The position numbers and the translations under genes are program-made. The notes under the pieces were generated by a model. The model did not search any database, was not told where the DNA came from, and saw only the letters and a list, made by a program, of their open reading frames with translations. Shown here one piece after another: positions 14,235-37,292 of a DNA stretch of 64,000 nt. The stretch's first letter is position 1. Each line of letters opens with the position of its first letter. Source of the stretch: Zoogloeaceae bacterium (GTDB lineage: Bacteria > Pseudomonadota > Gammaproteobacteria > Burkholderiales > Rhodocyclaceae); assembly GCA_031287525.1 (NCBI GenBank), contig JAITSU010000057.1, forward strand, positions 1 to 64,000, read 5' to 3'.

Positions 14235-14259
14235 GATAAATAAAAGGCTTTGGTTTATG
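14235..14259 (-). promoter_or_regulatory. Late-operon motif A (upstream of lysozyme)
   Basis: Read leftward, CATAAACCAAAGCC then TTTTATTTATC matches the motifs at 25386-25409 and 37268-37292 (22 of 25 positions with the latter). In each case it points toward the next late gene. It contains an ATAAA/TTTAT inverted pair, like sites for Mor/C-type activators. Promoter function is inferred. Confidence 0.55.
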
Positions 14260-14283
14260 CGCCCGGTCGGAAAAGCGAAAAAT

Positions 14284-14520
14284 GCGGGCAATCTGCTGCG
14301 TCAGGGTGATAAAGGTAATGCCAAATCCAGTGGCAAAGGCGGCGCTGTTTTTGCCAAAAACAGCCACAAACAGGCGCGCGAAACGTGGCACACAGCCGAA
14401 GCCTGGCAAGTCAACATCCCCGCCCGCCCCTTCCTGCCTTTTTACGGCTCCCCCGAAAACGCCACCCTCCAACCGGAAACCGAAAAAACCATTCTGGACG
14501 CCATTTCCGGGATGCTGAAC
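14284..14520 (+). repeat. Inverted repeat copy 2 (237 bp)
   Basis: Inverted partner of 2807-3043; see that entry. Both copies are 237 bp with no gaps. Confidence 0.9.
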
Positions 14521-14532
14521 AACCTTCCCTGA
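14284..14532 (+). pseudogene. Inverted partial copy of gpG (C-terminal 79 codons plus new end)
   Basis: The frame repeats the end of the gpG-like protein (AGNLLRQGDKGNAKSSGKG ... PARPFLPFYGSPENATLQPE ... AISGMLN) but finishes NNLP instead of NAAAR. The N-terminal two thirds are missing. The first 237 bp are the inverted repeat of 2807-3043. The open frame continues upstream without family similarity. If the intervening block inverted, this end would complete gpG. Confidence 0.85.
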
Positions 14533-14533
14533 T

Positions 14534-14917
14534 TTATTTCCCTTGCGCGGGCGGTGTCGCCGCCAGGCGCTTGCGGTCAGCGGCGGAAAGGTTGATGCCG
14601 TCGAGTTGCACGATACCCAGGAATTTTTCTTCCCCGTCAAACACCAGCACCACCACTTTCCGGTGGGTGGTGGTCTTGACGTCCCAGCCCATCGCGTCGG
14701 CGTCTGAACGCACATAAGCCCAACGGTGCAGCCAGTTTCCTTTCGGCGTCAACACCGAGGATTCCGGTGTGCCGAGCGCCGCCTTGGCTTCGGCAAAGGT
14801 CGTGGCGCCAATCTCGAAGGCAGGAAGCGCGGCATCATTGAAATCCGTGCCAATGGTTGCTGTGGCGCAGGCGGCGAGGATGAAGAGGCTGACAAGCAGG
14901 GGGATGAGGCGTTTCAT
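14534..14917 (-). CDS. Lipoprotein, possible BamE/SmpA-like fold
   Basis: The 127-aa product has a lipoprotein signal MKRLIPLLVSLFILAACA (lipobox LAAC). The mature part has IGATTFAEAKAALGTPES, then KGNWLHRWAYV and two beta strands (RKVVVLVFDGEEKFLGIVQLDGI), a pattern like small outer-membrane lipoproteins of the SmpA/OmlA type. It is the last gene of the leftward lysogeny operon, 23 nt after the preceding gene. Lipoproteins in that place often alter the lysogen surface or block superinfection; here this is inference from position. Confidence 0.75.
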   Translation of the reverse strand: MKRLIPLLVSLFILAACATATIGTDFNDAALPAFEIGATTFAEAKAALGTPESSVLTPKGNWLHRWAYVRSDADAMGWDVKTTTHRKVVVLVFDGEEKFLGIVQLDGINLSAADRKRLAATPPAQGK

Positions 14918-14940
14918 AGTGATCCTTTCACGTGGTAATT

Positions 14941-15462
14941 TTAAGAGGGGAAAACCGTGTAGCTGTTACCCTTCTTTTTGCGGAAAATCGCGCCAGTTTC
15001 ATGCGCGAAATACAGCACGTAACGCGCTGTTTCCACGTCAACCGGAAGATATGGGTACAAATCAGTCTGACGAATTCCTGGAGACTGTTGCACAAGGGGA
15101 AGGATAATCTTCATGCACTGCCCAAAAAGCGGGTCGATGCGGGTAAATTCGCACATCAGGGCGGTGAACTGATCGACAAGTTCGGGGCGGTTTTTACGTT
15201 CTGCATATACCATATAAGAAATTTTCTGCAAAGCTCGACGAGCACCATCGTAATCACCATTCTGTAGATGTGCCAGTGCATCGAAAGGGCTGCTGCGGGC
15301 ATTTACCCAAAATGGTTCTCCTGCGCTTTCTTTACGGCGATGGGCTGGTGCTGGATTTTGCTTTTCTTTGTTATGCTTACCTGTTCTTCGTAAGCGACGA
15401 ACAAACCACCATAAACCCAGAAAAACGACCAACCAGAATACTCCGATCAAGAATTGACTCAT
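14941..15462 (-). CDS. Membrane-anchored protein of unknown function in the lysogeny operon
   Basis: The 173-aa product has one N-terminal membrane helix (FLIGVFWLVVFLGLWWFV), a basic cytoplasmic flank (RRLRRTGKHNKEKQ), a low-complexity linker and a helical domain from about residue 55 (SPFDALAHLQNGDYDGARRALQKI). The C-terminal part (PVDVETARYVLYFAHETGAIFRKK) looks winged-helix-like. I do not recognise the family. It lies between an unknown gene and the lipoprotein, all on the repressor strand, so it is probably expressed in the lysogen. Confidence 0.7.
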   Translation of the reverse strand: MSQFLIGVFWLVVFLGLWWFVRRLRRTGKHNKEKQNPAPAHRRKESAGEPFWVNARSSPFDALAHLQNGDYDGARRALQKISYMVYAERKNRPELVDQFTALMCEFTRIDPLFGQCMKIILPLVQQSPGIRQTDLYPYLPVDVETARYVLYFAHETGAIFRKKKGNSYTVFPS

Positions 15463-15478
15463 GTTACCCGCCTTTCAT

Positions 15479-16018
15479 CTAATCAGGTTTCATGCTGTGC
15501 GAAATGCTGCACCGGCAATCCAGCCGGTTGCAGGGTAGCTTCTTGGTTTTCCAGTAGGCGTCTGCATGATGCCTGTAGCCTGCCTTCGCTTCTTCCAGAC
15601 ATTCCGGGTAGGCGCGACCATCTTCGATGACGGACAAGCGCCAGTAGGGAAAGGTATCTACTTCCTGCTCGTATTTCAGGCGTTTCTTTTGAGCGTAATA
15701 GGCCAACAGGATACGCTGGACAAGAAGGTCGGTCATTGTGTAACAGTTGGAGCCACCCTCCTCTTCGTCATCATCTTCTTCCTGGTCTTGCGGGTACCGC
15801 TCACGCCAGTACGCAGTGTGCAGTTCGTAACGTAGCCAGCGCACACCACTTTCCTCGAAGAATACGCGACAAAGCCGTTTCAATTCCCTGTCACTCTCGC
15901 CATTGATGACTTTTCCCCCTACGCGCAGGATGCGCGAAAGGTCGCCTCGCCAGCGCGGGAATTCTTCACGAAAAATCGCGGTCAGCACCTGCTCGAAGAG
16001 TGCCTGGTTTTCATCCAT
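15479..16018 (-). CDS. Unknown protein with MuF-like C-terminal signature, lysogeny operon
   Basis: The 179-aa product has an N-terminal helical part and a strongly acidic segment (DQEEDDDEEEGG). The C-terminal region FPYWRLSVIEDGRAYPEC ... YWKTKKLPCNRLDCRC parallels the end of the MuF domain in this phage (RPYWRYVAVMDSRT ... WQTLWPPNGWGCRC). Conserved between them are PYWR, D-x-R, W-x-T, P and the CRC end. It is not next to head genes but directly behind the repressor, overlapping it by 8 bp. It may mimic or bind a head protein, for example as an exclusion factor; this is speculative. Confidence 0.7.
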   Translation of the reverse strand: MDENQALFEQVLTAIFREEFPRWRGDLSRILRVGGKVINGESDRELKRLCRVFFEESGVRWLRYELHTAYWRERYPQDQEEDDDEEEGGSNCYTMTDLLVQRILLAYYAQKKRLKYEQEVDTFPYWRLSVIEDGRAYPECLEEAKAGYRHHADAYWKTKKLPCNRLDCRCSISHSMKPD

Positions 16019-16649
16019 TTAAGAATTCTCTTGTTCGCTTACTCAACAGAACAAAAGCAGGACGCGCACTCGACCAGAGAAGGGCAATGGCGAGCAAGGG
16101 CGCGGCGGCGAGGGAAAAGCAGGTGGCAAAGTCATCCAGGGTAGTGGCGAAGCCGCCACCCAAAAAGGCCAGCAGGAAGAGTATCCCGCCACAACTGGCG
16201 ATGATGCAGAAGAAGAGCATCTCCAGCAGCGCTCCGCCCACTTCCTTGAAGCGGAGTTGCCGTGTCTTGTCTTTGGGCAAATCAAGAAAAAGCAGTGTCC
16301 AAGCCAGAAATCCCTTCGCGTCTTTTTTTTGCGCCTGCTGAATGACCACTGCATTTTCTTCTGCTGACGCCCACCCATCGCGAAACTCGCCGCCATTTGC
16401 TCGCGCAGCTTCACCTGCTGCCTGCTGTGCTGCCAGTCTGGCGTGTGCCTCAAGAGTAATGCCAGTGAGGATGTAGAGCACGTCCACACCAGATGCAGCA
16501 AGTGCCGATAGCTGAGAAGCATCCGGCGCAGTCTTCCCTGTCTCCCAAGAAAAAAGAGTTTGCTTTGTTGTCCCTGCGATTGCCGCAAATGCGGGCTGCG
16601 TCATTCCTAAACGCTCACGCTCTTCTCTTAACCGTTCTCCGATAGACAT
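16011..16649 (-). CDS. Phage repressor with XRE helix-turn-helix and two C-terminal membrane segments
   Basis: The 212-aa product begins MSIGERLREERERLGMTQ; this start follows an AAAGGA ribosome site 9 nt upstream and is the usual start of XRE domains. The HTH is TQPAFAAIAGTTKQTLFSWETGK, followed by the common phage repressor segment ASGVDVLYILTG. The C-terminal half has two hydrophobic helices (LLEMLFFCIIASCGGILFLLAFLG and FSLAAAPLLAIALLW), so the protein is predicted to be membrane-bound. It is divergent from the early operon, the place of Mu repressor c, and heads a four-gene leftward operon. Confidence 0.82.
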   Translation of the reverse strand: MSIGERLREERERLGMTQPAFAAIAGTTKQTLFSWETGKTAPDASQLSALAASGVDVLYILTGITLEAHARLAAQQAAGEAARANGGEFRDGWASAEENAVVIQQAQKKDAKGFLAWTLLFLDLPKDKTRQLRFKEVGGALLEMLFFCIIASCGGILFLLAFLGGGFATTLDDFATCFSLAAAPLLAIALLWSSARPAFVLLSKRTREFLNG

Positions 16650-16667
16650 AAAAAATTTCCTTTTTGC

Positions 16668-16696
16668 TTGCCAAGGAAAGATTTCTTTCCTAAAAT
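16668..16696 (+). promoter_or_regulatory. Early promoter with operator palindrome
   Basis: TTGCCA, 17 bp, TAAAAT gives a near-consensus sigma70 promoter reading toward the early genes. Its spacer holds an inverted repeat AGGAAAG-attt-CTTTCCT (16674-16691), with a further TTTCC box at about 16655, a good candidate for the repressor operator. Confidence 0.65.
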
Positions 16697-16734
16697 AACG
16701 CTCATCATCACTCACAGGCACTAATCATACCGCC

Positions 16735-17010
16735 ATGACTACTCCACTGCACACCCCCCTGCCTTACCCACAGACACGCCAGACGGCGCGGGCATGGTTC
16801 CTCGACAACGGCGTCTGCATTGCCGAATGGGCGCGTGACCAGGGTCTGAGTTACCAGCGCGTCAAAGATTTTTTCCGCCGCCAGCAAATGCCCAAAGGGG
16901 TGCGCGGCGAAGCGCACCGCGTTGCGGTCGCACTTGGGCTGAAAAAAAACCCGAACCTCCGCGTGGATTTGACCGCGCCCGTCAGTCAGGTATCGAAGAG
17001 GTCAGTATGA
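16735..17010 (+). CDS. Cro/Ner-like DNA-binding early regulator
   Basis: The 91-aa product has a helix-turn-helix around NGVCIAEWARDQGLSYQRVKDFFRR and a following segment GVRGEAHRVAVALGLKK. This order is common in small DNA-binding proteins found first in the early operon of Mu-like and related phages. It is divergent from the repressor and about 30 nt downstream of the predicted early transcript start. By position it should act like Mu Ner, lowering repressor transcription during lytic growth. It overlaps the next gene by 4 bp. Confidence 0.78.
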   Translation: MTTPLHTPLPYPQTRQTARAWFLDNGVCIAEWARDQGLSYQRVKDFFRRQQMPKGVRGEAHRVAVALGLKKNPNLRVDLTAPVSQVSKRSV

Positions 17011-17315
17011 GCGCTTACACCAACGACGCCCAGCAGCGACTGATCAAACTCATCCTGCTGATGTTCGGCGATGTCGTACAGGGCTTTCCGCCCTCAACCC
17101 TCGCGCGTGAATTGGGTTGCGCCCCCGCCGTCATGACGCGCGACCTCGCCAACCTTTTAGAAGCGGGCATTGCCGTAAAAAATGAACAAACGGGGCTTTG
17201 GAAGCTTACTCCCCGCCTGCCGCAGCAAGCCATCAAGGTTTTCACCGCCATCGACCGCGCCGAGCGTGAGCTTGCCGAGACGAAGGCGCGTTTTATTCAT
17301 CAACCCATGCAATGA
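17007..17315 (+). CDS. Winged-helix phage regulator
   Basis: The 102-aa product has an N-terminal winged helix (LIKLILLMFGDVVQGFPPSTLARELGCAPAVMTRDLANLLEAGI) with the wing AVKNEQTGLWKLTPR, similar in outline to IclR-type DNA-binding domains. The C-terminal helix is probably for dimerisation. It overlaps the Cro-like gene by 4 bp. Role probably regulation or transposition support in the early operon; not certain. Confidence 0.72.
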   Translation: MSAYTNDAQQRLIKLILLMFGDVVQGFPPSTLARELGCAPAVMTRDLANLLEAGIAVKNEQTGLWKLTPRLPQQAIKVFTAIDRAERELAETKARFIHQPMQ

Positions 17316-17331
17316 CAAGGACGCAACCATC

Positions 17332-18333
17332 ATGAGCAAATTTACACCCTCCGAAGCCCCTGTGCAAAAACGCGGGCGCAAACCCGGCATCGCAGAAGTA
17401 CCGCCAGAACCCGATTTCAACCAGCCGTACATTGATAGCGCAATGGAGGTAATGCGCCAAACGGAACTGGCGAAAGAACAAGAAGCCTTCTCGGAAACTT
17501 TCGATTTGGGGTGCTTCGTCGGTGCAGCACAAATGGCATCGGCGATGGGCAGTTTTTGCGAAGCTTCGCAAATTCGCGCCTTCTCTGAAATCAAAAAATC
17601 TAAAGCATTCAAACACATAGCAATAAATCATCCAAATGGGGAATTGCGAATTTCGCAAAATATCGACGAATTTTGCCGGGCGGTTTTCAAGCGTGGCTAC
17701 AGGGTTATGCAGGATGACGAAGGAATTCTTCAGCGTTTGGGCGGGGCAGCTTTCGATGCACTTAACAGCCTGGGCATCTCTCGCGGTCAGATGCGCCTGC
17801 TGATCAGTCTCCCCGAAGACGAACGCGCCGCTGTCGCCGAGGCTGTCAAGTCCGGCGAGAAATCCGAAGTGGTGAGCCTGATTCAAGACCTCGCCAACAA
17901 GCTGGACGAAACCCGCCAGAAGGTCGACGAACTCAAAGCCGAAGATACCGCCAACAAAAGCTTGCTCGCCGAGCGCGCGAAAAAGGTGGATGCCCTGGAA
18001 GCAAAGCTGAAGCGTGCCGTGAATGCCGAGCCGGATACCGTGGTCAGCGAACTGCGCGACGTGGTGAACAAGTGGATGAACGACGCTCTGGGCGCGATCC
18101 AGGGCAACTTCCGTTTGTCCATTCAGCAATTGCTCGACTACGAAGCCACGCAGCGGGATGCGGGCGTGGCGCTGGATTCAAAAGTCTGGCTGGCGGGCGT
18201 CTTCGCGCAGGTGGCGGATGCGCTCAACACCGAGCGCGGGGCGTTTTTTATTCCCGATGTGGGCGCGGTGGCAAAGCGCCCGGAATGGCTGGATTTTTCA
18301 GCGGATGTGAATCAGGCGTCGATCGACCAATGA
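17332..18333 (+). CDS. Early coiled-coil protein of unknown function
   Basis: The 333-aa product starts MSKFTPSEAPVQKRGRKPG; the longer upstream frame is read through the previous gene in another phase. The N-terminal half includes a helical domain (FDLGCFVGAAQMASAMGSF). The middle has FDALNSLGISRGQMRLLISLPEDERAAV, resembling ParB-type HTH context. Then comes a long coiled coil (KLDETRQKVDELKAEDTANK, LLAERAKKVDALEAKLKRA). It lies just before transposase in the early operon. I do not recognise a named family. Confidence 0.75.
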   Translation: MSKFTPSEAPVQKRGRKPGIAEVPPEPDFNQPYIDSAMEVMRQTELAKEQEAFSETFDLGCFVGAAQMASAMGSFCEASQIRAFSEIKKSKAFKHIAINHPNGELRISQNIDEFCRAVFKRGYRVMQDDEGILQRLGGAAFDALNSLGISRGQMRLLISLPEDERAAVAEAVKSGEKSEVVSLIQDLANKLDETRQKVDELKAEDTANKSLLAERAKKVDALEAKLKRAVNAEPDTVVSELRDVVNKWMNDALGAIQGNFRLSIQQLLDYEATQRDAGVALDSKVWLAGVFAQVADALNTERGAFFIPDVGAVAKRPEWLDFSADVNQASIDQ

Positions 18334-18358
18334 ACGGACGAACGCAGTTCGCCCCTAC
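18331..18358. repeat. Palindromic repeat, copy 6 (half unit)
   Basis: GGACGAACGCAGTTCGCCCCTAC directly after the stop codon of the preceding gene, before transposase A. Confidence 0.85.
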
Positions 18359-18379
18359 ACCTGAACCCTGACGCCCATC

Positions 18380-20134
18380 ATGCTTTCTGCCGCCACCATC
18401 GAACGCCTGTTTCGCCTCGCCACCGCCCTTTGCGCGGCGAAACATGGCGGCAAGGAAGCGCTCTACACCGCCTGTGCCAATGAACTTGGCATCAGCCGGG
18501 CAACGCTTTTACGTTATCTGAAGGAAGTGACCGTGCAACCCGCGCGCAAACAACGCACCGACGCCGGAAGCAGCCAGTTGGACAGGGAAGAAGCCAAGAC
18601 CCTTTCGGCTTTCCTGATGGAATCCCTGCGTAAAAACAACAAGCGCCTGATGTCCATCCCCCAGGCGCTGGCAACCCTGCGCGCCAATGGCGAGATTCGC
18701 GCCGAAGCCGTGGATAAAGCCACGGGCGAACTGCGCCCGCTTTCACCCTCTGCCGTCTCGCGCGCCTTGAAACTCTACGGGATGCACCCCGACCAGCTTC
18801 TGCGCCCCGCGCCCGCCAAGGAATTGAAGAGTTTGCACCCCAATCATGTCTGGCAAATCGACGCTTCGCTGTGCGTACTGTACTACCTCATCGGCGACGG
18901 CGGTTTGCAGGTGATGGAACACGACCAGTTCTACAAAAACAAGCCCAAGAACCTCGCCAGAATCGCCGCCGATCGCGTGTGGTCGTATGAAATCACCGAC
19001 CACTATTCAGGCAGCATCTTTGTGTTTTATGTGATGGGATCGGAGTCCGCCGCCAATCTGGCGGAGAGTTTCATTCAGTGCGTCACCAATACCGGCAACG
19101 GGCATTTTCATGGCGTGCCGCTGATTCTGATGATGGACATGGGCAGCGCCAATACGAGCGGCATGTTCAGGAACCTTGCCCGCCGTCTGCAAGTGCAAAC
19201 GCTGGCGCACATGCCCGGCGCGGCACGGGCGACGGGGCAGGTGGAAAACGCCCGCAACATCATCGAACGTAGTTTTGAATCCGGGCTTGCTTACTGCGCC
19301 ATCCGCGATCTCTCCGAACTGAACGAGCGCGCCCGCCAGTGGTGCGTGTGGTTTAACTCGACACAAAAGCATTCCCGCCACGGCAAGGCGCGGCATGAAC
19401 TCTGGCAGACCATCACGGCGGATGAACTGCGCCTCGCGCCGCCGCCGGAACTTTGCCGCGAATTGCTGACCCACACGCCAGAAACCCGCAAGGTCAGCGA
19501 CTTTTTGACCATCAGTTTCAATGGGCGTGACTATGACGTACATGAGATTCCCCGCGTCATGGTCGGCGAGAAACTTGCCATCACCTGGAATCCCTACGAT
19601 CTCGACTCCGCGCTGGTGGTGGATGTTGATGCCGACGGGCATGAATTGCTCACCCGCATCCCGGCGATCGAACGCGACGAAGCGGGGTTTCGTGTCGAAG
19701 GCGCAAACATCATCGGCGAGGACTACGCCCGTCACGCCAATACCATAGCAGACGAAAACCGGAAAGAAGTCGAACTGGCGGCAATGGGCGTCTCCACGCT
19801 GGTGGAAGCCGAAGCCGCAAGGAAGAAAAAGGAACTGCCTTTCGGCGGGCGCATTGACCCCTGGAAGGTTGCCGCCGAAGCCAACCTGCCGACATGGATA
19901 CCCAAACGTGGCACGGCGCTCTCCGTCAGCACGCAGACCGTTGCCGTCGAAAAAACCCTCAACCATTTCGAGATTGCCCGCGCCCTCTGCGCCCGTGGCG
20001 TGGTGATGGATGCCGACAAGAACCGCCAGATTGCCGGATGGTTCCCGGATGGCGTGCCGGAATCGGAACTCGCCGCCCTGGAACAACGCCTGACCGTCCG
20101 CGCCGGATTGCGGGTGGTGGGGGGAATGTCATGA
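18380..20134 (+). CDS. Mu-type transposase A (DD35E)
   Basis: The 584-aa DDE transposase would cut and join the prophage ends for integration and replicative transposition. N-terminal HTH segments are around ANELGISRATLLRYLKEVT and SPSAVSRALKLYGM. The catalytic core has D161 (HVWQIDASLCVLYYL), D253 (LILMMDMGSANTSG) and E289 (ATGQVENARNIIERSFE), with 35 residues between the second Asp and the Glu. A C-terminal Mu-transposase-type domain has ISFNGRDYDVHEIP and ITWNPYDLDSALVVD. The gene is complete and ends overlapping the ATPase gene. An intact triad means the element may still move. Confidence 0.95.
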   Translation: MLSAATIERLFRLATALCAAKHGGKEALYTACANELGISRATLLRYLKEVTVQPARKQRTDAGSSQLDREEAKTLSAFLMESLRKNNKRLMSIPQALATLRANGEIRAEAVDKATGELRPLSPSAVSRALKLYGMHPDQLLRPAPAKELKSLHPNHVWQIDASLCVLYYLIGDGGLQVMEHDQFYKNKPKNLARIAADRVWSYEITDHYSGSIFVFYVMGSESAANLAESFIQCVTNTGNGHFHGVPLILMMDMGSANTSGMFRNLARRLQVQTLAHMPGAARATGQVENARNIIERSFESGLAYCAIRDLSELNERARQWCVWFNSTQKHSRHGKARHELWQTITADELRLAPPPELCRELLTHTPETRKVSDFLTISFNGRDYDVHEIPRVMVGEKLAITWNPYDLDSALVVDVDADGHELLTRIPAIERDEAGFRVEGANIIGEDYARHANTIADENRKEVELAAMGVSTLVEAEAARKKKELPFGGRIDPWKVAAEANLPTWIPKRGTALSVSTQTVAVEKTLNHFEIARALCARGVVMDADKNRQIAGWFPDGVPESELAALEQRLTVRAGLRVVGGMS

Positions 20135-21486: not shown

Positions 21487-21487
21487 C

Positions 21488-21817
21488 ATGGCTGCATCAG
21501 GGATCAGAGGTAGGGGCGAACGGCGTTCGCCCGTTCGTCGGTCGCCCGCCGCCCGCTACGGAGTGGATATACATCTCTCCAACCTCAAAGCCTGCCTGCA
21601 CTGGCTGCTGGATACGGGCGTGCCGGTTGAACGGATCGAAATGAATCAGGCAACCCCCGCGCCGTTTATTCACATCACCCCGCATCCGGCGCTGGCGCGC
21701 TTTGCCTGCCAGACCGAAAGCTATGGTCGCCGCGAAGTCGGCAATCAGGTCATCTTCAAATTCCGCATTCTGCATCGGGGCTGCTGGCTGTTGTGGGAAG
21801 GAGGGGACGCGCCATGA
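21488..21817 (+). CDS. Small hypothetical early protein with repeat-derived N-terminus
   Basis: The product is 109 aa. Residues 4-22 (SGIRGRGERRSPVRRSPAA) are read from a palindromic repeat. Normal-looking sequence then follows: YGVDIHLSNLKACLHWLLDTGVPVERIEM, ITPHPALARFACQTESYGRREV, FRILHRGCWLLWE. It has no signal or membrane helix. Position after the ATPase and a 4-bp overlap with the next gene place it in the early operon. Function unknown. Confidence 0.65.
   Translation: MAASGIRGRGERRSPVRRSPAARYGVDIHLSNLKACLHWLLDTGVPVERIEMNQATPAPFIHITPHPALARFACQTESYGRREVGNQVIFKFRILHRGCWLLWEGGDAP
21510..21540. repeat. Palindromic repeat, copy 7 (translated)
   Basis: GTAGGGGCGAACGGCGTTCGC plus CCGTTCGTCG, inserted in frame after the first codons of a small early gene. 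Confidence 0.88.
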
Positions 21818-22182: not shown

Positions 22183-22193
22183 AAGGAATCAAC

Positions 22194-24387: not shown

Positions 24388-24872
24388 CTCCCGCCCTCGC
24401 CGCCCGCCTCAAAAAACTCCGCGCCATTCGTTACGGTCACAAAGCCGAAATCGACGACGCGGCTTACCGCGCCCTGCTCATGCGGACGGCGGGCGTGACC
24501 TCTTCGACCGCGATCACCCGTCTGGATCAGGCGGACGCCGTGATTGCCGAATTCCGCCGTCTGGGGATTGGCAAGCCGTCGCGCCCGCGTCCAGTCCTCA
24601 CGCCCACCCAGAAAAAAATCTGGTCGCTCTGGCAGCAACTCGCCGACGCTGGATATGTGCATGACCGTTCCATGCGCGGGCTTGCCGCCTGGGTGAAGCG
24701 GCAAACGCGCGTCGATGCCCTGCAATTCCTCACCGCGCCGCAGGAAGACGCGGTGATTGAGGCGCTGAAACAATGGGTTTCCAGGTGCAGGGGCGAACTG
24801 CGTTCGCCCGCAGAGGGCGGTCGACCCACGGACGGGCGAACACAGTTCGCCCCTACGTCACCTGTCACCTGA
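24384..24872 (+). CDS. gemA: GemA-like regulatory protein (Mu gp16-type, DUF1018)
   Basis: The 162-aa product has the DUF1018 pattern: RLKKLRAIRYGHKAEIDDAAYRALL, ITRLDQADAVIAEFRRLG, TPTQKKIWSLWQQLADAGYVHDRSMRGLAAWVKRQTRV and LTAPQEDAVIEALKQW. In Mu, GemA modulates host gene expression and DNA supercoiling. The last ~28 residues (CRGELRSPAEGGRP ... FAPTSPVT) are translated from a palindromic repeat and replace the normal end. It precedes mor, as in Mu-like phages. Confidence 0.85.
   Translation: MTPALAARLKKLRAIRYGHKAEIDDAAYRALLMRTAGVTSSTAITRLDQADAVIAEFRRLGIGKPSRPRPVLTPTQKKIWSLWQQLADAGYVHDRSMRGLAAWVKRQTRVDALQFLTAPQEDAVIEALKQWVSRCRGELRSPAEGGRPTDGRTQFAPTSPVT
24785..24856. repeat. Palindromic repeat, copy 8 (translated, two units)
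   Basis: GTGCAGGGGCGAACTGCG and its facing unit CACAGTTCGCCCCTAC are 72 bp end to end and supply the C-terminus of the GemA-like protein. Confidence 0.88.
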
Positions 24873-24907
24873 CCTCTGACCCCTGCCCGCCTGAAAGGAG
24901 TTCCCCC

Positions 24908-25294
24908 TTGTCCCTGCCCGATACCGCCCGCCTCGCGCCGCTCACTGCCCGCTTGCCGGAAGGGTTGAATCCGACCCTCCAGGAAGTGGCTGAACAGCTC
25001 TACCTGTATCTGGTGGAGGAAGCGGGGTTAAGGCGCAACCCCGCCGAGATTGCCGACATTGCCCTGGGGCAGGTTGACCGCCTCGCCCGCGTGGTGGGCG
25101 GCAGCGGCTTCTACATGCCCAAGGGCATTGCCGTGGCGCTCTGTGCGCGGGACAAGGAAATCGCGGCGAAATTCAAAGGCAACAACACCCGCGAACTCGC
25201 CCGCGAATACGGCGTTTCCGAAATGCGGATCACGCAGATCATCAAGGCATGGCGGCAAGCCGAACTGGCGAAGCGGCAAGGCGCGATGTTTTGA
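24908..25294 (+). CDS. mor: Mor-type transcription activator of middle/late genes
   Basis: The 128-aa product starts at TTG, 8 nt after AAAGGAG. Longer frames upstream run through a palindromic repeat. The family pattern is LNPTLQEVAEQLYLYLVEEAGL (dimerisation), FYMPKGIAVALCARDKEIAAKF and the C-terminal HTH NTRELAREYGVSEMRITQIIKAW. Mor and C of Mu bind dyad sites and activate middle or late promoters. Three copies of a conserved motif upstream of late operons in this prophage are candidate targets. Second in line after GemA, the usual order. Confidence 0.88.
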   Translation: MSLPDTARLAPLTARLPEGLNPTLQEVAEQLYLYLVEEAGLRRNPAEIADIALGQVDRLARVVGGSGFYMPKGIAVALCARDKEIAAKFKGNNTRELAREYGVSEMRITQIIKAWRQAELAKRQGAMF

Positions 25295-25304
25295 GCCAGG
25301 GGGT

Positions 25305-25374
25305 GTAGGGGCGAACTGCGTTCGCCCGTTCGTGGGTCGACCAACGTCTGCGGGCGAACGCAGTTCGCCCCTAC
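25305..25374. repeat. Palindromic repeat, copy 9 (two units)
   Basis: GTAGGGGCGAACTGCGTTCG and the facing GAACGCAGTTCGCCCCTAC with a 30-bp spacer. Between mor and the protease gene, where the lysis/packaging block would be expected in a Mu-type genome. Confidence 0.9.
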
Positions 25375-25385
25375 ACCTGCTCCCT

Positions 25386-25409
25386 GAAAACCAAAACCCT
25401 TTCATTATC
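25386..25409 (+). promoter_or_regulatory. Late-operon motif B (upstream of protease)
   Basis: GAAAACCAAAACCC-TTTCATTATC followed by CCCGCGCC; matches motifs at 14235-14259 (opposite strand) and 37268-37292. It lies 24 bp before the first late gene of the rightward operon. Promoter function inferred. Confidence 0.55.
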
Positions 25410-25432
25410 CCCGCGCCATCGCCCGCCGCATC

Positions 25433-26449
25433 ATGCGGCTCATGGCAAACGAAACCCAAACATCCCTCGAAGCAGCAACCCTGCCGCCCGGAATCGAAAT
25501 TTTCCGGGCGGGCAGGCATATCGACGACGCGGGGGAGAAGCGTGAATTCACGATCGCCGACCTCGCCGCGATTGCGGCTGCCTACCAGCCTGACAAACGT
25601 GAAGCGCCGCTCGTCGTCGGTCATCCGACGACGGACGCTCCGGCTTATGGCTGGGTGGGCGCGGTGCGTTCCGAGGGCGACAGGCTCTTGATTGACGCCC
25701 GCGATGTCGCGCCCGCCTTTGCCGAAATGGTCAAGGCCCGCCGCTTTCCCAAGCGCAGCGCGGCGTTTTATCCCCCCGCGCATCCCTCGAACCCGACCCC
25801 CGGCAGTTGGTATCTGCGTCATGTCGGGTTTCTGGGCGCGCAGCCGCCTGCCATTGCCGGGCTTAAAGACATCCGGTTTTCCGATGCCGATGCCGGTGTC
25901 GTCTCGTTTTCCGAATCACCTCAACCGTCACAGGAGCAGAACAAAATGGATGATGAATTGAAGCAAAAACTCGCGGACGCCGAAAGCGCGTTGGCGAAGT
26001 CCGAAGCCGAAAAGGCATCGCTCAAAGCCGAGGCGGACGCCGCCAAAACCGTTGCCGCGCAATTTGCCGAAGCGCAAAAGGCGGAGCGCCATGCCGCGCA
26101 CGTGCAATTTACCGAGGCGCAGGTCGCCGCCGGTCGCCTGTTGCCGAAAGACAAGGCTTCTGCCGTCGCCGTGCTGGATGCCCTCGCGGACGCCGCGCCG
26201 GTGGAGTTTGCCGAGGGCGACGCAAGCAAAAAGGTTTCGCCTGCCCTGTTCGTCAAGGAACTGCTGCAAAGCCGCCCGCCGGTGGTGCAGTTTGGCGAGT
26301 TCGCCTCTGCCACGCTGCCGGACAAGCTCATCCCCGCCAGCCAGTCGGACGCGGATGTGGACAAGGCCGCCCGCGCCTACGCCGCCCAGCACAACGTCGG
26401 CTATGCCGAGGCCATCGGCAAGGTTATTGCCTTCACCCATTCTGTTTAA
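25433..26449 (+). CDS. Prohead protease with C-terminal scaffold (Mu I-like)
   Basis: The 338-aa product matches Mu gpI: the N-terminal protease domain has IEIFRAGRHIDDAGEKREFTI, APLVVGHPTTDAPAYGWVGAV (His of the active site region) and FPKRSAAFYPP (Ser region). It continues into a coiled-coil scaffold (MDDELKQKLADAESALAKSE, EAEKASLKAEADAAKTVAAQF). The protease processes the prohead, and the scaffold directs capsid assembly. The scaffold part also has its own start. It is first in the rightward structural operon and is followed by the capsid gene. Confidence 0.87.
   Translation: MRLMANETQTSLEAATLPPGIEIFRAGRHIDDAGEKREFTIADLAAIAAAYQPDKREAPLVVGHPTTDAPAYGWVGAVRSEGDRLLIDARDVAPAFAEMVKARRFPKRSAAFYPPAHPSNPTPGSWYLRHVGFLGAQPPAIAGLKDIRFSDADAGVVSFSESPQPSQEQNKMDDELKQKLADAESALAKSEAEKASLKAEADAAKTVAAQFAEAQKAERHAAHVQFTEAQVAAGRLLPKDKASAVAVLDALADAAPVEFAEGDASKKVSPALFVKELLQSRPPVVQFGEFASATLPDKLIPASQSDADVDKAARAYAAQHNVGYAEAIGKVIAFTHSV
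25946..26449 (+). CDS. Internal in-frame scaffold protein (Mu Z-like)
   Basis: An in-frame ATG preceded by CAGGAG at 9 nt begins MDDELKQKLADAESALAKSE, the scaffold part of the protease gene. The product would be 167 aa, largely coiled coil at first. Mu makes its scaffold Z in the same way from inside gene I. Expression is inferred from the ribosome site. Confidence 0.65.
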   Translation: MDDELKQKLADAESALAKSEAEKASLKAEADAAKTVAAQFAEAQKAERHAAHVQFTEAQVAAGRLLPKDKASAVAVLDALADAAPVEFAEGDASKKVSPALFVKELLQSRPPVVQFGEFASATLPDKLIPASQSDADVDKAARAYAAQHNVGYAEAIGKVIAFTHSV

Positions 26450-28744: not shown

Positions 28745-28759
28745 TGAGCCTGACGCCGA

Positions 28760-28821: not shown

Positions 28822-28826
28822 AAATA

Positions 28827-29345: not shown

Positions 29346-29374
29346 TTTTTTCTCACGCGAAAGGAATTTTTACC

Positions 29375-30151: not shown

Positions 30152-30155
30152 TCGG

Positions 30156-30227
30156 GTAGGGGCGAACTGCGTTCGCCCGTCGTGGATGCGTTTGACCAAC
30201 GAACGGGCGAACACAGTTCGCCCCTAC
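30156..30227. repeat. Palindromic repeat, copy 11 (two units)
   Basis: GTAGGGGCGAACTGCGTTCG and the facing GAACACAGTTCGCCCCTAC, 72 bp, between the tail tube and next tail gene. Confidence 0.9.
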
Positions 30228-30246
30228 GGCTGAAAGGAGTTCCCTC

Positions 30247-31086: not shown

Positions 31087-31088
31087 AC

Positions 31089-31111
31089 GGGCGAACACCG
31101 TTCGCCCCTAC
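31089..31111. repeat. Palindromic repeat, copy 12 (half unit)
   Basis: GGGCGAACACCGTTCGCCCCTAC ends directly against the CAGGAG ribosome site of the next gene. Confidence 0.85.
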
Positions 31112-31125
31112 AGGAGAAATTGAAC

Positions 31126-32064
31126 ATGCCATTTATTACCGGACAAGCGGGCAGCCTGCAAGGGCTACTAGACGCGCTCACGACGGCCATCACCGCCCAC
31201 GGCTGGACTGACGCTGGCGGCGGCTGTTATACAAAAGACGGCTGCGCGGTGCGCCTGGAACTTCTCAACATGGGGAGTTTTTACGGGACGACGCAATATC
31301 GGTTTTATGTCATACGGCTTGTCGTGGGCAACGGCGTATCGGGCGGCGCGCTGGTGGATGGCGCGCCAATAGGTCAGTTTATCGGCGAAATGGAACAAAA
31401 TACCGGTTATGGCATTTCGTTTCCCGCCACCTTTTCAATCCACATCAACCAGAATCCTGACGAAGTGTATTTTTTCGTGAATCACAACGTCACATACTGG
31501 CAATGGCTGGCGTTTGGAAGAAGCCCTGTTCCCGGCATACCCGGAACAGGTAATTGGTCGGGCGGCACTCGCGGCGCTCCGGCAAGCGGCGTATATGGCG
31601 CAGGAAAGATTGCCATCTACATCACCCCGACAGGCGGCACTGGCGGCACACACTATACGACCAGCACTGCGCTTTTTTGGGACGGCAACGTAAACACCGA
31701 GGCAGTTACCTCCATTATCCATCATGGCTTATCGGGTGACGGATGGCAGAGCGCCCCTTCCGGCGCCGTCGCCGCCGCGCCGCGAATAGAATACGGGATT
31801 TCAACCTGGAATCAGGGCGCGCCCTTGATTCCGATTCGCGCGCTGCTGGCGCGGGGTGACACCAAGAATTCCATTATCAGTGAACTTCGCCACGCCCGTT
31901 ATCTGCGCCTCGACCATTACGCGCCGGGAGAGGTCATAACGCTCGGACAGGACAAATGGCGCGTCTACCCCTGGTGGAAAAAAAACATAACAGCGCGAAA
32001 CGGCGGAACGAACATCGACCACACCGGCACTTTCGGCGTGGCGCTACGTTACGACGGCGCGTAA
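31126..32064 (+). CDS. Phage tail structural protein, unknown
   Basis: The product is 312 aa from MPFITGQAGSLQGLLDAL, after CAGGAG. Its N-terminus (TAITAHGWTDAGGGCYTKDGC) and beta-rich body (YRFYVIRLVVGNG, FFVNHNVTYWQWLAFG, GKIAIYITPTGGTGG) end with DKWRVYPWWKKN and HTGTFGVALRYDGA. The closing motif resembles those of phage tail-tip associated proteins. It is in the tail operon; no firm family. Confidence 0.7.
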   Translation: MPFITGQAGSLQGLLDALTTAITAHGWTDAGGGCYTKDGCAVRLELLNMGSFYGTTQYRFYVIRLVVGNGVSGGALVDGAPIGQFIGEMEQNTGYGISFPATFSIHINQNPDEVYFFVNHNVTYWQWLAFGRSPVPGIPGTGNWSGGTRGAPASGVYGAGKIAIYITPTGGTGGTHYTTSTALFWDGNVNTEAVTSIIHHGLSGDGWQSAPSGAVAAAPRIEYGISTWNQGAPLIPIRALLARGDTKNSIISELRHARYLRLDHYAPGEVITLGQDKWRVYPWWKKNITARNGGTNIDHTGTFGVALRYDGA

Positions 32065-32067
32065 GCC

Positions 32068-33771
32068 ATGAGCGTCATCGAAGCCTTCCTCGTCGCCACC
32101 TGCCTGCCCCCCGGCGTGAATGGCAATCTCGCGCCGGATTTGGACAAATTCAGCGGCATCACCGGCTGGCCGGGGACGGAAGACCTGGGCGCGGCGGGCG
32201 GCTACATGCCCATGACGGCGCATTTTCCGGTTGAGGCGAACGGTAAAACCATCGCCGCATGGCGGGGCGGGTGCTACTTTGACGATTACTATCACCGCAT
32301 TCACATCACGCCCGCGTCGATCGACGTGGGCAACATCGCCGCCGAGCAGAAAATCGACCTCTCCATCTGGAACAGCGCTTTGACCCCGCAGACGCTCACC
32401 GCCGTGACCGGGCTGGATGATGACATCACGGTCACGACGCCCTTCGCGCTGCCCTTTGCGATGCCTGCCTTGCGGGAAGACTTGCATCAACTGAACCTGT
32501 CGCCGTCCGGTCCCTCGACCATTGACCTTGAGATTCACTTTGTTTTTACCGGCCTCCCCGACGCCATTGTCGCCATTGTCGGCAATCGCATCGTCGCGTT
32601 TCCGTGGCCGGTGAATTGGGTTGAACCTGTGCGCGAGAATTTCCAGTGGACAACCGACATCCTCACCTCGGAGACCGGCGCGGAGCAGCGACGCGCTTTG
32701 CGGATTTCGCCCCGCGTCCGCCTGTCCGGCGCGGCGCTGGTGGCGGAAGAGGAACGCGCGAATCTCGACCTCGCGCTTTCCAACTGGGCGGCGAATGTCT
32801 GGTGCGTCCCGTTCTGGCCGGACATTCAAACCCTCGCCGCCGACGCGCCGAAAGGCTCAACCTTCATTTCCTGCGTGACAGCGGGTTATGATTTTGCCGT
32901 TGGTTCACTCGCGCTCCTGATTGGCGAATCGCCTTTCGACAACGAAGCGGTCGAAGTGACCGCCATCGCCGCGCATGGCATCGAAATCAAACGCCCGACC
33001 GGATTTGACTGGCGGGCGGGCACGCGCCTTTTTCCCGCGCGGCAGGCAAGGCTCATGACCCTGCCGGAAGTCACCCGTGAGACCGATACCGTCGATACCC
33101 TCGCCGTCGAATTTCAGCTCACCGAAACCCGCGACCGGACGGGCAAGCTGCCCACGCCGACTTATCGCGGGCTGCCGCTCTTTCTCGACCGTCCGAACGA
33201 AGCCGACAAACTCACGCGCGCGCAAGAGCGGCTCATCATCACGCTGGATAACGAGGTCGGCAAAGTAGCGGTCATCGACACCGCCCGCCGCGCTTTCCAG
33301 ACGCTGCAACACAGTTTTCTGCTCGCCGGCCGCGCCGCGCTGCAAGACTTTCTCGACTTTGTTTATGGCTTGAACGGCAAACAAAAAGCGATCTGGGTGC
33401 CCACCCACGCCGCCGATCTGACGCTCATCGAACCGGCAAGCGCCAATGCGCTGGCGGTAAAACGTGTGGGCTATCCCCGCTTCGGTCTGGGTACGCCGGG
33501 GCGGCAGGACATTCTGATTCAGATGCACGACGGGAGCGTCCTGACCCGCCGCGTCACCGCCGCCGTCAGCGACGGCAATGTGGAACGCCTGGCCGTCGAT
33601 ACGCCTTTCCCTGCCGCGATTTTGCCGTCGCAGGTGGCGCGCATCAGCTATCTCATCTGCGCGCGGCTGGCGTCGGACGAAATCGAAGTGGAACACCTGA
33701 CCGACAACCACGGCGTCGCCCGCGCCAGCCTCACATGGCGGGCGGTGCGGGATGATCTGGAATCGACATGA
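32068..33771 (+). CDS. Putative tail tip / distal tail protein
   Basis: The 567-aa product has no signal peptide. The N-terminal part has FPVEANGKTIAAWRGGCYFDD. The middle has PWPVNWVEPVRENFQWTTDI, RRALRISPRVRLSGAALVAE and NVWCVPFWPDI. The C-terminal part has FLLAGRAALQDFLDFVYGLNGKQKAIWVP and HDGSVLTRRVTAAVSDGN. These resemble large tail-tip proteins placed just before the DUF2163/BR0599-type gene in transposable siphoviruses. It follows the preceding gene by 3 nt. Confidence 0.7.
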   Translation: MSVIEAFLVATCLPPGVNGNLAPDLDKFSGITGWPGTEDLGAAGGYMPMTAHFPVEANGKTIAAWRGGCYFDDYYHRIHITPASIDVGNIAAEQKIDLSIWNSALTPQTLTAVTGLDDDITVTTPFALPFAMPALREDLHQLNLSPSGPSTIDLEIHFVFTGLPDAIVAIVGNRIVAFPWPVNWVEPVRENFQWTTDILTSETGAEQRRALRISPRVRLSGAALVAEEERANLDLALSNWAANVWCVPFWPDIQTLAADAPKGSTFISCVTAGYDFAVGSLALLIGESPFDNEAVEVTAIAAHGIEIKRPTGFDWRAGTRLFPARQARLMTLPEVTRETDTVDTLAVEFQLTETRDRTGKLPTPTYRGLPLFLDRPNEADKLTRAQERLIITLDNEVGKVAVIDTARRAFQTLQHSFLLAGRAALQDFLDFVYGLNGKQKAIWVPTHAADLTLIEPASANALAVKRVGYPRFGLGTPGRQDILIQMHDGSVLTRRVTAAVSDGNVERLAVDTPFPAAILPSQVARISYLICARLASDEIEVEHLTDNHGVARASLTWRAVRDDLEST

Positions 33772-33775
33772 ACCC

Positions 33776-33803
33776 GTAGGGGCGGTTCGTGAACCGCCCC
33801 TGC
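33776..33803. repeat. Palindromic repeat, copy 13
   Basis: GTAGGGGCGGTTCG / TGAACCGCCCCTGC, a 28-bp near-perfect palindrome like copy 3. Confidence 0.9.
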
Positions 33804-33822
33804 ATCAACAGGAAACCCGACC

Positions 33823-34650
33823 ATGCCATTCAATGAGATAGAAATTTCAATATCCTCCGCCCGCCCGTACCGCCTCTACCTCTTCGAGCGCGGCGGCGAG
33901 CGATGGGCATACACCAATGCCGATCGCGATGTCACCTATCAAAACATCGCTTACAAAGCGCTGCCCATTTCCGATGATGGCATCCGCGCCACGGGCGAAG
34001 TCTCCGCCGACCAGATGACGGTGACGGCTCCCGCCGACCTTGATGTAGCGATGATGTTTCGCGCCGCCGCGCCTTCCGACGACATTTGGCTGACCCTGCG
34101 CGATTCGAGCTACGGCTTGCCCGACGCCGCCGATTCCGCCGCCGTGGTTTGGGTGGGCAGTGTCCGCGCCGTGCGCTGGTCGGAACCGGGCAAATCGGAA
34201 CTCTGCTGCAATTCCATTTCCGCCAGCATGGGGCAAACGGGTCTGCGTCTCTCCTTTGAGCGGTCTTGCCCGCACTGCCTCTACGACGGGCAATGCCGTG
34301 TCTCCGCCGCGCTGTACAAGGTGACGCGCAACATCATCGACATGAACGGACAAAGCATTGTCGTCTCCGGCATCGACAGCACGCCGATTTACGCGGGGGG
34401 GATTGTGCAGTGGCAATCCGGCATCGCGACCGAGCGGCGCGCCATCGAAGCCCAAGGCGGCAACACCCTGGCGATTCTGGGCGGCACCTACGGCATGAAA
34501 ACCGGCATGAGTGTGGCGCTCTACCCTGGATGCGACCAGACCCGCGAAACGTGCGACAGCCGTTTCAACAACATCGAAAACTTTGGCGGCTTCGCCCACA
34601 TGCCGGGCAAGTCGCCGTTCGACGGCGACGCCATTTATTCGGGGAGTTAA
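33823..34650 (+). CDS. DUF2163 / BR0599-type tail assembly protein
   Basis: The 275-aa product has the N-terminal DUF2163 pattern (RPYRLYLFERGGERWAYTN, ADQMTVTAPADLDVAMMFRA, WVGSVRAVRWSEPGKSEL). A cysteine-bearing region follows (FERSCPHCLYDGQC). The hallmark C-terminus is YPGCDQTRETCDSRFNNIEN then FGGFAHMPGKSPF. The conserved Cys residues are like those of lambda gpL-type tail tip proteins that bind a metal cluster. It is in the tail-tip gene order before the hub protein. Confidence 0.85.
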   Translation: MPFNEIEISISSARPYRLYLFERGGERWAYTNADRDVTYQNIAYKALPISDDGIRATGEVSADQMTVTAPADLDVAMMFRAAAPSDDIWLTLRDSSYGLPDAADSAAVVWVGSVRAVRWSEPGKSELCCNSISASMGQTGLRLSFERSCPHCLYDGQCRVSAALYKVTRNIIDMNGQSIVVSGIDSTPIYAGGIVQWQSGIATERRAIEAQGGNTLAILGGTYGMKTGMSVALYPGCDQTRETCDSRFNNIENFGGFAHMPGKSPFDGDAIYSGS

Positions 34651-34652
34651 GC

Positions 34653-34880
34653 ATGTGGTTCCAACTCTTCATGCTGGTTGTCTCGCTGGTGATCAGCGCC
34701 GTGACCGCGCCCAAAGCGGCGACCCCCAAACCCGCCAGCCTGTCGGACTTCGATTTTCCGCAATCGACCGAAGGCACCGCCGAAGCCGTGGTGTTTGGCG
34801 ACGTGTGGATTGAGGACTGGTTTGTGACCGGCGTCGGAAATTTCCGCAAGTTCGACGTCAAGACCAAGGGGGGTAAATGA
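34653..34880 (+). CDS. Small membrane-anchored tail-module protein
   Basis: The 75-aa product has an N-terminal hydrophobic helix (MWFQLFMLVVSLVISAVTA), then SLSDFDFPQSTEGTAEAVVFGDVWIEDWFV. Genes like this precede the hub/fibre gene in related phages. It overlaps the next gene by 4 bp. The role may be an assembly or injection component; not proven. Confidence 0.68.
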   Translation: MWFQLFMLVVSLVISAVTAPKAATPKPASLSDFDFPQSTEGTAEAVVFGDVWIEDWFVTGVGNFRKFDVKTKGGK

Positions 34881-35089
34881 AAATCACCCCCTCCGACCTG
34901 CACGAAGCGCCGCTGTTCGGCAAACGCGGCTGGTGCGCGAAAGGTTGCCGCGCGTGGGCGGCGGCGCATCACCTCGACTGGTCAGCCTTCGTGCGCGATG
35001 GCATTGACGAGGCTGAACTCCTCGCCACCGGCGACCCGATGGCGGCGGCGCTGGTGGATTGGAAAAAATCACAACAGGATGAATCATAA
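34877..35089 (+). CDS. Small tail-module protein
   Basis: The 70-aa product, MKITPSDLHEAPLFGKRGWCAK, has a conserved-looking GCRAWAAAHHLDWSAFVRDGIDEAELLATGD segment typical of small proteins in transposable siphovirus tail-tip modules. It overlaps both neighbours by 1-4 bp. Function unknown. Confidence 0.68.
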   Translation: MKITPSDLHEAPLFGKRGWCAKGCRAWAAAHHLDWSAFVRDGIDEAELLATGDPMAAALVDWKKSQQDES

Positions 35090-37272
35090 TGGGCAGCAAA
35101 AAAGTCAAAATCGGCTACGTCTACTATATGGGGCTACACATGACCCTGTGTCGCGGCCCCGTGGATGAGCTACGTACCATCATGGTGGGCGACAAGGAAG
35201 CCTGGACGGGCAGCGCCACCGGCAACGTGGAATTCAAGATCAACAAGCCCGACCTGTTCGGCGGCGAAAAGAAAGAAGGCGGCATCGCGGGCACGCTCGC
35301 CGTGCTGATGGGCGACGCCACGCAAGCCGTGCACGAACGCCTCGCCCGGATGTTGGGCGGACTTGTCCCCGCTTTTCGCGGCGTGACTTCAGTCTTTTAC
35401 GACGGCGAGCTTTGCGCCCTGACCGTTTATCCCAAAAAGTGGGCGTTCCGTGTCCGCCGCACGGTGAAGGGATGGCAGGGCGGCGCGGCATGGTATCCCG
35501 ACAAATGCGCCATCTGGCTGAATGGTTACGACATCAAGGCGATGAATCCCGCGCACATCCTCTACCAGATTTACACCGACGCCACCATTTCGCGCGGGCT
35601 TCCCCCCGCGCGCCTTGATGACGCCTCATTTCGCCGCGCCGCCGACCAGCTCTACGCCGAAGGATTCGGGCTGTGTTTGAAATGGTCGCGGCAAGACGGC
35701 ATCGACCGCTTCGCGCAAATGGTCATTGACCACATTGGCGCGGTGGTCTATACCAGCCGCAACACGGGTTTGCTGACCCTGAAACTCATTCGCGGCGATT
35801 ACACGATAGATACCGTTCCCGCCTTCGATCCCGACCACGGGCTACTCGGCATCGACGAAGACGAAACCACGGCGGTCTCTGAATCGGTGAATGAAATCAT
35901 CGTCAAATACACCGACCCCGCTGACGGTAAAAGCCGCTCCACCCGCATCAAAAACAACGCCGCCATCATGACGTCCGGCAGCGTGGTGTCGCAAAGCAAA
36001 GATTACCCCGGTATCCCCACCGAATCACTGGCGCAGCGCGTTGCCCTGCGCGACCTGAAAGCGTCGGCGGGCGGGTTGCGAAAGCTGAAAATCCGCCTGA
36101 ATCGTCTGGGCGCCGGCCTTGTCCCCGGCGATGTCTTCAAAATCGCCGCGCCCTCGCGCCATATAGAATCCCTCATCCTGCGCGCCGGACGCTGCGAATA
36201 CGGCGAGGGCACCGACGGCACCGTCACCATCACCGCCGTACAGGATGTCTTCGGGCTGCCGGGCACAAGCTGGTCAGGCATTGAAACTCCCGGCTACATC
36301 CCGCCCGATGTTACGCCGCGCCCCGCCCCGCAACAAATCCTGCAAGAAGCCCCGTTCAGGTCGCTGGTGCAGATCATGGGCAATGCCGACGCCCGCCTGA
36401 TGGATCCGACATTCGGCTACCTCACCGCGCTGGCGGAATCCCCCACGCCCCTGTCGGGCGGTTTTCAGATCTGGTCAAAGGTCGGCGCGCAAGCCTACAC
36501 GTGCGCGAATGAAGAAGAGGGCAACTTCTCTCCCGTGGCCATGCTGGCAAACGACCTCGGCATGACCACCACAGCCGTGACCTTCACTGACGGGAAAGCC
36601 CTTGAATTCGTGGAAACCGGCGGCGCGGCGCTGATCGACCATGAAATCGTCCGCGTCGATTTTATCGACATCACGGCGGGCGTCATGACCATTGCGCGCG
36701 GCTGTTGCGATACCGTCCCCGCCCCGCACGCTTCCGGCGCCACCATTTGGTTCACCGAAGACACCGGCGGCGCGGACGAAACCGAATACATCAGCGGCGC
36801 CACGGTCAACGTCAAACTGCTCACCACCGCGCCGGGCGGCATTCTCGACCTCGCCGCCGCCCAGGAGGGCGCGCTCACCATCACGGGCCGCGCCGGAAAA
36901 CCCTACCCGCCGGGCAATTTCAAAATCAACGGTCTCACGTATCCCGCCACCATTCCCAATCCGCCCCTGCTCCTGACCATCAGCTGGTCGCACCGCGACC
37001 GCCTGACCGAATCGGATTTGCTCATCGATACCACGCAAGGCAACATCGGCCCGGAAGACGGCACCACGTACCGGCTCCGCCTCTACGGTCAAGACGGCGC
37101 CCTGAAAAAAACCGTCACCGGCATCACCGATACAAGCTACCAATGGATGTCAGAAGGCGCGGACAGCGGTCTAGGCATCGGCAACGTCAACCGCCAGGTG
37201 CGCGTCGTGCTGGACAGCGCGCGGGATGGCATTTACAGCCATCAGGCGCATGACTGGACAGTTTTCAGATAA
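35089..37272 (+). CDS. Tail tip hub / central fibre protein (gpJ-like)
   Basis: The 727-aa product lies at the usual place of the J-type hub. N-terminal features are KVKIGYVYYMGLHMTLCRGPVDELRTIMVGDKEAW-like sequence, LARMLGGLVPAFRGVTSVFYD and WYPDKCAIWLNGYDIKAMNPAHILYQIYTD. The middle has SVNEIIVKYTDPADGKS. The C-terminal region includes a fibronectin-like part (LLLTISWSHRDRLTESDLL ... TYRLRLYGQDG). It should form the tail tip that opens on adsorption. It shares no repeat-derived insertion. Confidence 0.82.
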   Translation: MGSKKVKIGYVYYMGLHMTLCRGPVDELRTIMVGDKEAWTGSATGNVEFKINKPDLFGGEKKEGGIAGTLAVLMGDATQAVHERLARMLGGLVPAFRGVTSVFYDGELCALTVYPKKWAFRVRRTVKGWQGGAAWYPDKCAIWLNGYDIKAMNPAHILYQIYTDATISRGLPPARLDDASFRRAADQLYAEGFGLCLKWSRQDGIDRFAQMVIDHIGAVVYTSRNTGLLTLKLIRGDYTIDTVPAFDPDHGLLGIDEDETTAVSESVNEIIVKYTDPADGKSRSTRIKNNAAIMTSGSVVSQSKDYPGIPTESLAQRVALRDLKASAGGLRKLKIRLNRLGAGLVPGDVFKIAAPSRHIESLILRAGRCEYGEGTDGTVTITAVQDVFGLPGTSWSGIETPGYIPPDVTPRPAPQQILQEAPFRSLVQIMGNADARLMDPTFGYLTALAESPTPLSGGFQIWSKVGAQAYTCANEEEGNFSPVAMLANDLGMTTTAVTFTDGKALEFVETGGAALIDHEIVRVDFIDITAGVMTIARGCCDTVPAPHASGATIWFTEDTGGADETEYISGATVNVKLLTTAPGGILDLAAAQEGALTITGRAGKPYPPGNFKINGLTYPATIPNPPLLLTISWSHRDRLTESDLLIDTTQGNIGPEDGTTYRLRLYGQDGALKKTVTGITDTSYQWMSEGADSGLGIGNVNRQVRVVLDSARDGIYSHQAHDWTVFR

Positions 37273-37292
37273 ACCAAAACCCTTTATTTATC
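37268..37292 (+). promoter_or_regulatory. Late-operon motif C (upstream of tail chaperone)
   Basis: GATAAACCAAAACCC-TTTATTTATC followed by TCTGCGCC, overlapping the stop of the hub gene. Same motif as A and B, in the same direction relative to the following genes. Confidence 0.55.

Follow-up and report, generated by a model that had tools for sequence, protein, structure and literature searches.

The late genes of a Mu-like prophage in a Zoogloeaceae bacterium are very probably expressed from promoters that the phage's own Mor/C-family activator would switch on through a short dyad-symmetric element. In the 64,000-nucleotide stretch of DNA analysed here (the window), copies of the motif (T)AAACCAAARC|CYTTTATTTATC stand before the lysis operon (14235-14259, minus strand), the head-protease operon (25386-25409, plus strand) and the tail-chaperone/tape-measure operon (37268-37292, plus strand). 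An initial annotation had picked out these three words as the late promoter element of the phage and had linked them to its Mor gene; both suggestions are strongly supported by the position of the motif before late operons, by its fixed distance to a -10 box at the place expected from Mu, by its co-variation with Mor and not with the transposase, and by the layout of phages B3 and D3112. We hold with considerable confidence the fuller proposal that a single Mor/C-family activator binds the dyad and thereby defines the late promoters, a reading that includes a leaderless protease message, a transcript start inside a hairpin at the lysis operon, and translation switched on along with transcription. 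It would give a widespread group of phages, including the laboratory phages B3, D3112 and DMS3, a readable rule for late promoters, and under it late transcription would be leaderless, hairpin-gated and bidirectional.

The prophage is of the siphophage type and about 41 kb long, extending from approximately 2668 to 43613, with ends estimated by comparison with G014, which, like G005, is a betaproteobacterial relative carrying a related prophage. Its leftward genes comprise the repressor and a late operon that starts with lysozyme (13421..14182, minus strand) and continues through spanin, TerS, TerL, portal, F and G down to 2792. The rightward genes are a ner-like gene, transposase A, B, mor, protease, capsid, tail genes, and the chaperone and tape-measure genes (37226..41319, plus strand; the chaperone ORF runs from 37226 with a likely start at 37370, and the tape-measure protein occupies 38062-41319). 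The leftward genes had been described as an inverted block tied to the same regulation. Their late operon is headed by a copy of the motif, but the orientation itself is the usual arrangement of this phage group: nearly all relatives that show the locus have TerL and the repressor on one strand and the genes for Mor, protease and capsid on the opposite one, as in the window, where transposase, Mor and protease are on the plus strand. The prophage splits a Neisseria-type cas9 (window 2403-2668 and 43582-46707), leaving about 1030 N-terminal residues on its right and a C-terminal piece of about 90 residues on its left, beside cas1, cas2 and a CRISPR array. Near its right end, a gene at 41778-42902 with GNAT acetyltransferase and ABC-like matches is a possible accessory (moron) gene.

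The three copies lie at the positions and in the orientations first described. Exact matches to AAACCAAARCCYTT in the window fall only at the three sites, and the 23-mer TAAACCAAARCCYTTTATTTATC, allowing up to 3 mismatches, likewise finds exactly 3 sites against 0 expected from 100 dinucleotide shuffles. The long form occurs only three times in the entire 2.75-Mb assembly, where the 14-mer core has one additional match that lacks the TTTATTTATC tail (the second half) and whose setting is not promoter-like. A search of 299 genomes from this family found the motif only in this prophage and in G005, and a separate genus search recovered it in G014. It precedes lysozyme in both of these relatives and the protease in G014, in which the chaperone is preceded by a weaker copy. 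Its recurrence before late genes of other prophages, which had been proposed as a check, thus extends to these two and, in the form of the dyad, to about 40 related transposable phages. Pairwise identity of the lysis upstream regions is 91% over the motif, 39-70% over the adjacent 18-30 nt, and 77-92% over the stretch from -10 to +1. An Rfam search gave a CRISPR repeat as its sole match.

Comparison of the copies shows that the element is a degenerate dyad with the half-site TAAAYYAAARS and a symmetry axis at ..AAARC|CYTTT... The ATAAA/TTTAT arms described at first were rejected, since the copies before the protease do not keep them. The register of the dyad is different, and the motif is family-wide. 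In this register the lysis/packaging dyad is AAACCAAAGC|CTTTTATTTA (14237..14256, minus strand; centre 14246|14247), which is orthologous in G014 and G005; the head-protease dyad is AAACCAAAAC|CCTTTCATTA (25388..25407, plus strand; centre 25397|25398); and the chaperone/tape-measure dyad is AAACCAAAAC|CCTTTATTTA (37271..37290, plus strand), which overlaps the J stop codon. Some relatives have a nearly perfect palindrome, AAACTAAAGC|GCTTTAGTTA, at the equivalent place, of which the window copy is a degenerate form.

For the wider comparison, 80 relatives were gathered with a transposase A query of viral contigs (a close-relative query with Mor gave no matches there), and 42 loci were aligned on the protease start codon, with 38 distinct protease upstream regions being counted. 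In this alignment the dyad lies 42-45 nt upstream of the protease ATG, and a -10-like NANNNT lies 6-7 nt before it. In 35 of the 42 loci, and at all sites of the window, exactly 31 nt separate the dyad centre from the -10. NANNNT with a spacer of 6 or 7 is present in 36 of 38 protease upstream regions, as opposed to 3 of 34 for capsid, 0 of 30 for TerL and about 3 of 42 in shuffles, these protease counts being from relatives that are not independent samples and with the -10 picked from several spacers. Mean dyad symmetry is 6.3 of 10 at the protease against 4.0-4.7 in controls; several relatives, such as L074, L075, L105 and L138, have poor dyads. A scan of all loci for a dyad combined with a -10 had 64 hits, whereas the reversed sequences had none. 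In the Pm promoter of Mu the Mor dyad is centred at -43.5 (PMC4287176), and a weak NANNNT box 31 nt past the dyad centre matches the position that this geometry requires. As in Mor/C-activated sigma-70 promoters, therefore, a dyad-symmetric element stands upstream of late operons, a poor -10 follows at the matching distance from a centre at about -43.5 relative to the predicted +1, and a Mor/C-family activator is encoded by the phage. At the lysis operon the predicted -10 is CACACT (14210..14215, minus strand), 31 nt from the dyad centre, with a predicted +1 at about 14203; this box is kept in the window, G014 and G005. The chaperone promoter has the predicted -10 GAAGAT (37312..37317, plus strand) and a predicted +1 at about 37324, ahead of the ATG at 37370.

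The activator gene (24773..25294, plus strand) matches Pfam Mor (7e-22), the PHROG late activator, and the PDB structures of Mu C (9l0x) and Mor (1rr7), in agreement with its earlier assignment. The first approximately 37 codons of this ORF overlap an inserted repeat and are unmatched in the G014 Mor, the conserved part starting further in. The repeat, GTAGGGGCGAACTGCGTTCGCCC, is palindromic and has at least 9 copies scattered in intergenic DNA of the prophage; of the two at window positions 24782-24864 and 25297-25379, one overlaps the N-terminal part of the mor ORF and the other abuts the protease dyad. Along the Mor tree the half-site shifts from TAAAR to TGAAG, TGGAG or TGGCG. Over about 40 natural pairs of Mor and site, half-site distance correlates with Mor distance (r 0.53) and continues to do so once transposase and protease distances are removed (partial Mantel r 0.51, p 0.0005), whereas it has no correlation with transposase distance (-0.09). 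This tie between promoter and activator sequence is, short of a footprint, the best available evidence that Mor would read the dyad.

At the protease, the promoter seems to leave no room for a leader. A Shine-Dalgarno sequence is found in 0 of 38 protease upstream regions, compared with 32 of 34 for the capsid gene, and we predict that the protease transcripts start at the AUG itself. In the window the -10 would put the transcript start on the ATG itself and there is no Shine-Dalgarno, and hence the start of the protease gene (25442..26449, plus strand) is assigned to 25442, 45 nt from the dyad centre, rather than to 25433. In the Pseudomonas phages B3, D3112, DMS3 and LPB1 the protease promoter ends in ..GGCGGC^ATG; the annotated protease of LPB1 begins precisely there and that of B3 before the -10. 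The promoter rule corrects protease start sites. The D3112 record (L154, near 19793-19860) lacks 1 nt relative to close relatives, and this conceals what is likely the true start of the protease.

The -10 box sits within an inverted repeat. The two arms vary among the phages while their complementarity is retained; the stems average 5.1 bp, against 3.8 with swapped arms (maximum 4.2 in 300). Before the window protease this repeat is GCCGCA-TCA-TGCGGC (25425..25439, plus strand), which encloses the predicted -10 CATCAT (25429-25434) and covaries in relatives. At the lysis operon a predicted RNA hairpin, CTTCTGA..TCAGGAG (14189..14211, minus strand), has the predicted +1 in its loop and would hide the lysozyme Shine-Dalgarno in longer RNAs. 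The lysis sites of the window, G005 and G014 and the second site of G308 have the same plan, the 5' arm overlapping the -10, the 3' arm holding the Shine-Dalgarno, and the predicted start lying in the loop. Different stems occupy this position in G014, G005 and G308, although the window and G005 share part of theirs. Pairing relative to shuffles is modest at single lysis sites (p 0.06, 0.03, 0.005 and 0.005 for the window, G005, G014 and G308, respectively), and at several other left sites Shine-Dalgarno pairing of this kind was not found. The tape-measure promoter of B3 has a 13-bp version of the hairpin. From these arrangements we infer that the hairpin, which takes up the -10 in its 5' arm or loop, would close off the start region whenever an RNA begins further upstream. 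Such a device has been proven in phage T4 for genes such as e and I-TevI (PMC3014915, PMC2988022). Several of the sites studied here resemble T4 e, soc, 49 and I-TevI (PMC3014915, PMC2988022) in that the late promoter would occupy the 5' arm of a hairpin and the translation start of longer, early RNAs would be kept out of reach. They differ in that T4 uses gp55/gp33 where sigma-70 and Mor would act here, and in that a predicted hairpin is also present before head-protease genes, next to an AUG without Shine-Dalgarno.

The motif had been described as always pointing at the genes. The orientations are as described, but the lysis dyad of the window, G014 and G005 is flanked on each side, at 31 nt, by a -10 and is thus not simply directed at one operon. 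Left dyads of nine relatives also have a -10 on both sides at 30-31 nt (L082, L084, L086, L091, L101, L102, L109, L117 and L141), while at real protease dyads an upstream-side -10 was never found (background 9%). In G014 the rightward box, GAAAAT, precedes the tape-measure gene with its GAGGAG Shine-Dalgarno, and this gene is divergent to lysozyme both there (L014, 45680-48915) and in G005 (L015, 6794-10649; contig coordinates). In the window the tape-measure gene lies behind the chaperone under a dyad of its own, and the equivalent predicted rightward -10, AAAAAT (14278..14283, plus strand), is probably vestigial, facing an inverted copy of the gpG 3' end. This copy forms the right arm (14281..14520, plus strand), adjoining the lysis dyad, of a 240-bp inverted repeat whose left arm (2807..3046, minus strand) is the 3' end of gpG itself; the arms are 93% identical and bound the leftward lysis/packaging block, and the right arm looks like an inversion scar. 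The lysis block of G014 has the opposite orientation to that of the window. Taken together, the gpG repeat, this reversal and the different position of the tape-measure gene indicate that motif-headed cassettes have moved and inverted within the lineage.

We envisage that, after induction, Mor from the early operon would bind the dyad, which is 20 bp long with its centre at about -43.5, and recruit sigma-70 polymerase to the weak NANNNT box 31 nt downstream. The protease transcript would begin at its AUG without a leader, and the lysis transcript in the loop of the hairpin, with the Shine-Dalgarno forming the 3' arm. Read-through RNAs, being longer, would include the complete hairpin and be poorly translated, whereby a single switch would turn on both transcription and translation of the late genes; the lysis dyad, being symmetric, could serve both directions. 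The generalization that a large group of transposable phages uses one type of bidirectional Mor dyad, with the -10 in a hairpin, a leaderless protease, late genes locked except in Mor-started RNA, and cassettes shuffled and inverted without loss of regulation, seems to us evenly balanced between being right and wrong.

Other explanations of the motif fare less well. The recurrence of short AT-rich words, and the fact that an exact-pattern scan of the genome collection returned ten stretches of which two are on the G014 contig, one is on that of G005 and seven come from unrelated organisms, might suggest chance or a dispersed host repeat. We consider this to have almost no likelihood, as none of the sites is expected in shuffled sequence and the reversed loci gave none of the dyad and -10 combinations. 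The seven unrelated matches are single hits beside which matching phage genes were not found. A host repeat was rejected outright, the motif being missing elsewhere in the host genome and in the family, contrary to what frequent occurrence in unrelated host DNA would have implied. The rearrangement of motif-headed blocks between the window and G014, and the 240-bp repeat bounding the lysis block, could instead speak for a site of recombination or transposition that moves late-gene cassettes (inverting the lysis block, relocating the tape-measure gene) and has no promoter role; this is very improbable given that the motif is fixed in position relative to start codons and -10 boxes and tracks Mor rather than transposase A, and that the far ends of the blocks lack a copy. 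The prophage ends also have none, and an att or transposase site was accordingly rejected.

A more serious possibility, though still an unlikely one, accepts the late promoter but takes the inverted repeat around the -10 for a DNA operator of another regulator, or a cruciform, and not for an RNA lock, with the protease message having a short leader. The stems do differ between lysis-type and protease-type sites, and several left sites lack the pairing with the Shine-Dalgarno. Against this, stem sequence varies freely among phages with complementarity kept, which is more in keeping with a structure than with the site of one protein, the Shine-Dalgarno is hidden in four lysis-type stems whose loops contain the predicted start, and the consistent lack of a Shine-Dalgarno at the protease does not favour a short leader. 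We therefore prefer the RNA lock.

The Mor/C promoters of Mu (Pm, Plys, PI, PP and Pmom) resemble those described here in their Mor/C-family activator, a dyad over the -35 region at about -43.5, a weak -10, and placement before lysis, protease and a tail operon. In Mu, Mor serves the middle genes and C the late genes; this division, which counts against the proposal, makes its regulatory cascade different from that of the present phages, where one Mor-type gene was found per phage locus in place of a relay from Mor to C. Further differences from Mu are the half-site TAAAYYAAARS, the predicted leaderless protease, the -10 in a hairpin, the bidirectional lysis dyad and the gene order. In B3 (Beetrevirus) an exact copy of that phage's dyad, TTTTCG-N6-CGAAAAGC, stands at each of three places, ahead of the lysis, protease and tape-measure genes, and D3112 and DMS3 (Casadabanvirus, the group to which LPB1 also belongs) have two dyads each. 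These late promoters have the same spacing as ours, with GGCGGC^ATG at the protease, but unlike half-sites (CGAAAA in B3, GTTGAACC|CCTTCC in D3112). The dyads of B3 and D3112 were found with their own half-sites, a plain symmetry scan of B3, D3112 and Mu having failed to pick out the expected promoters or to resolve the Mu dyads; some of these repeats, for example in B3, may have been noticed in earlier literature. In B3, D3112, DMS3 and LPB1, unlike here, the lysis-to-neck block precedes the protease and runs in the same direction.
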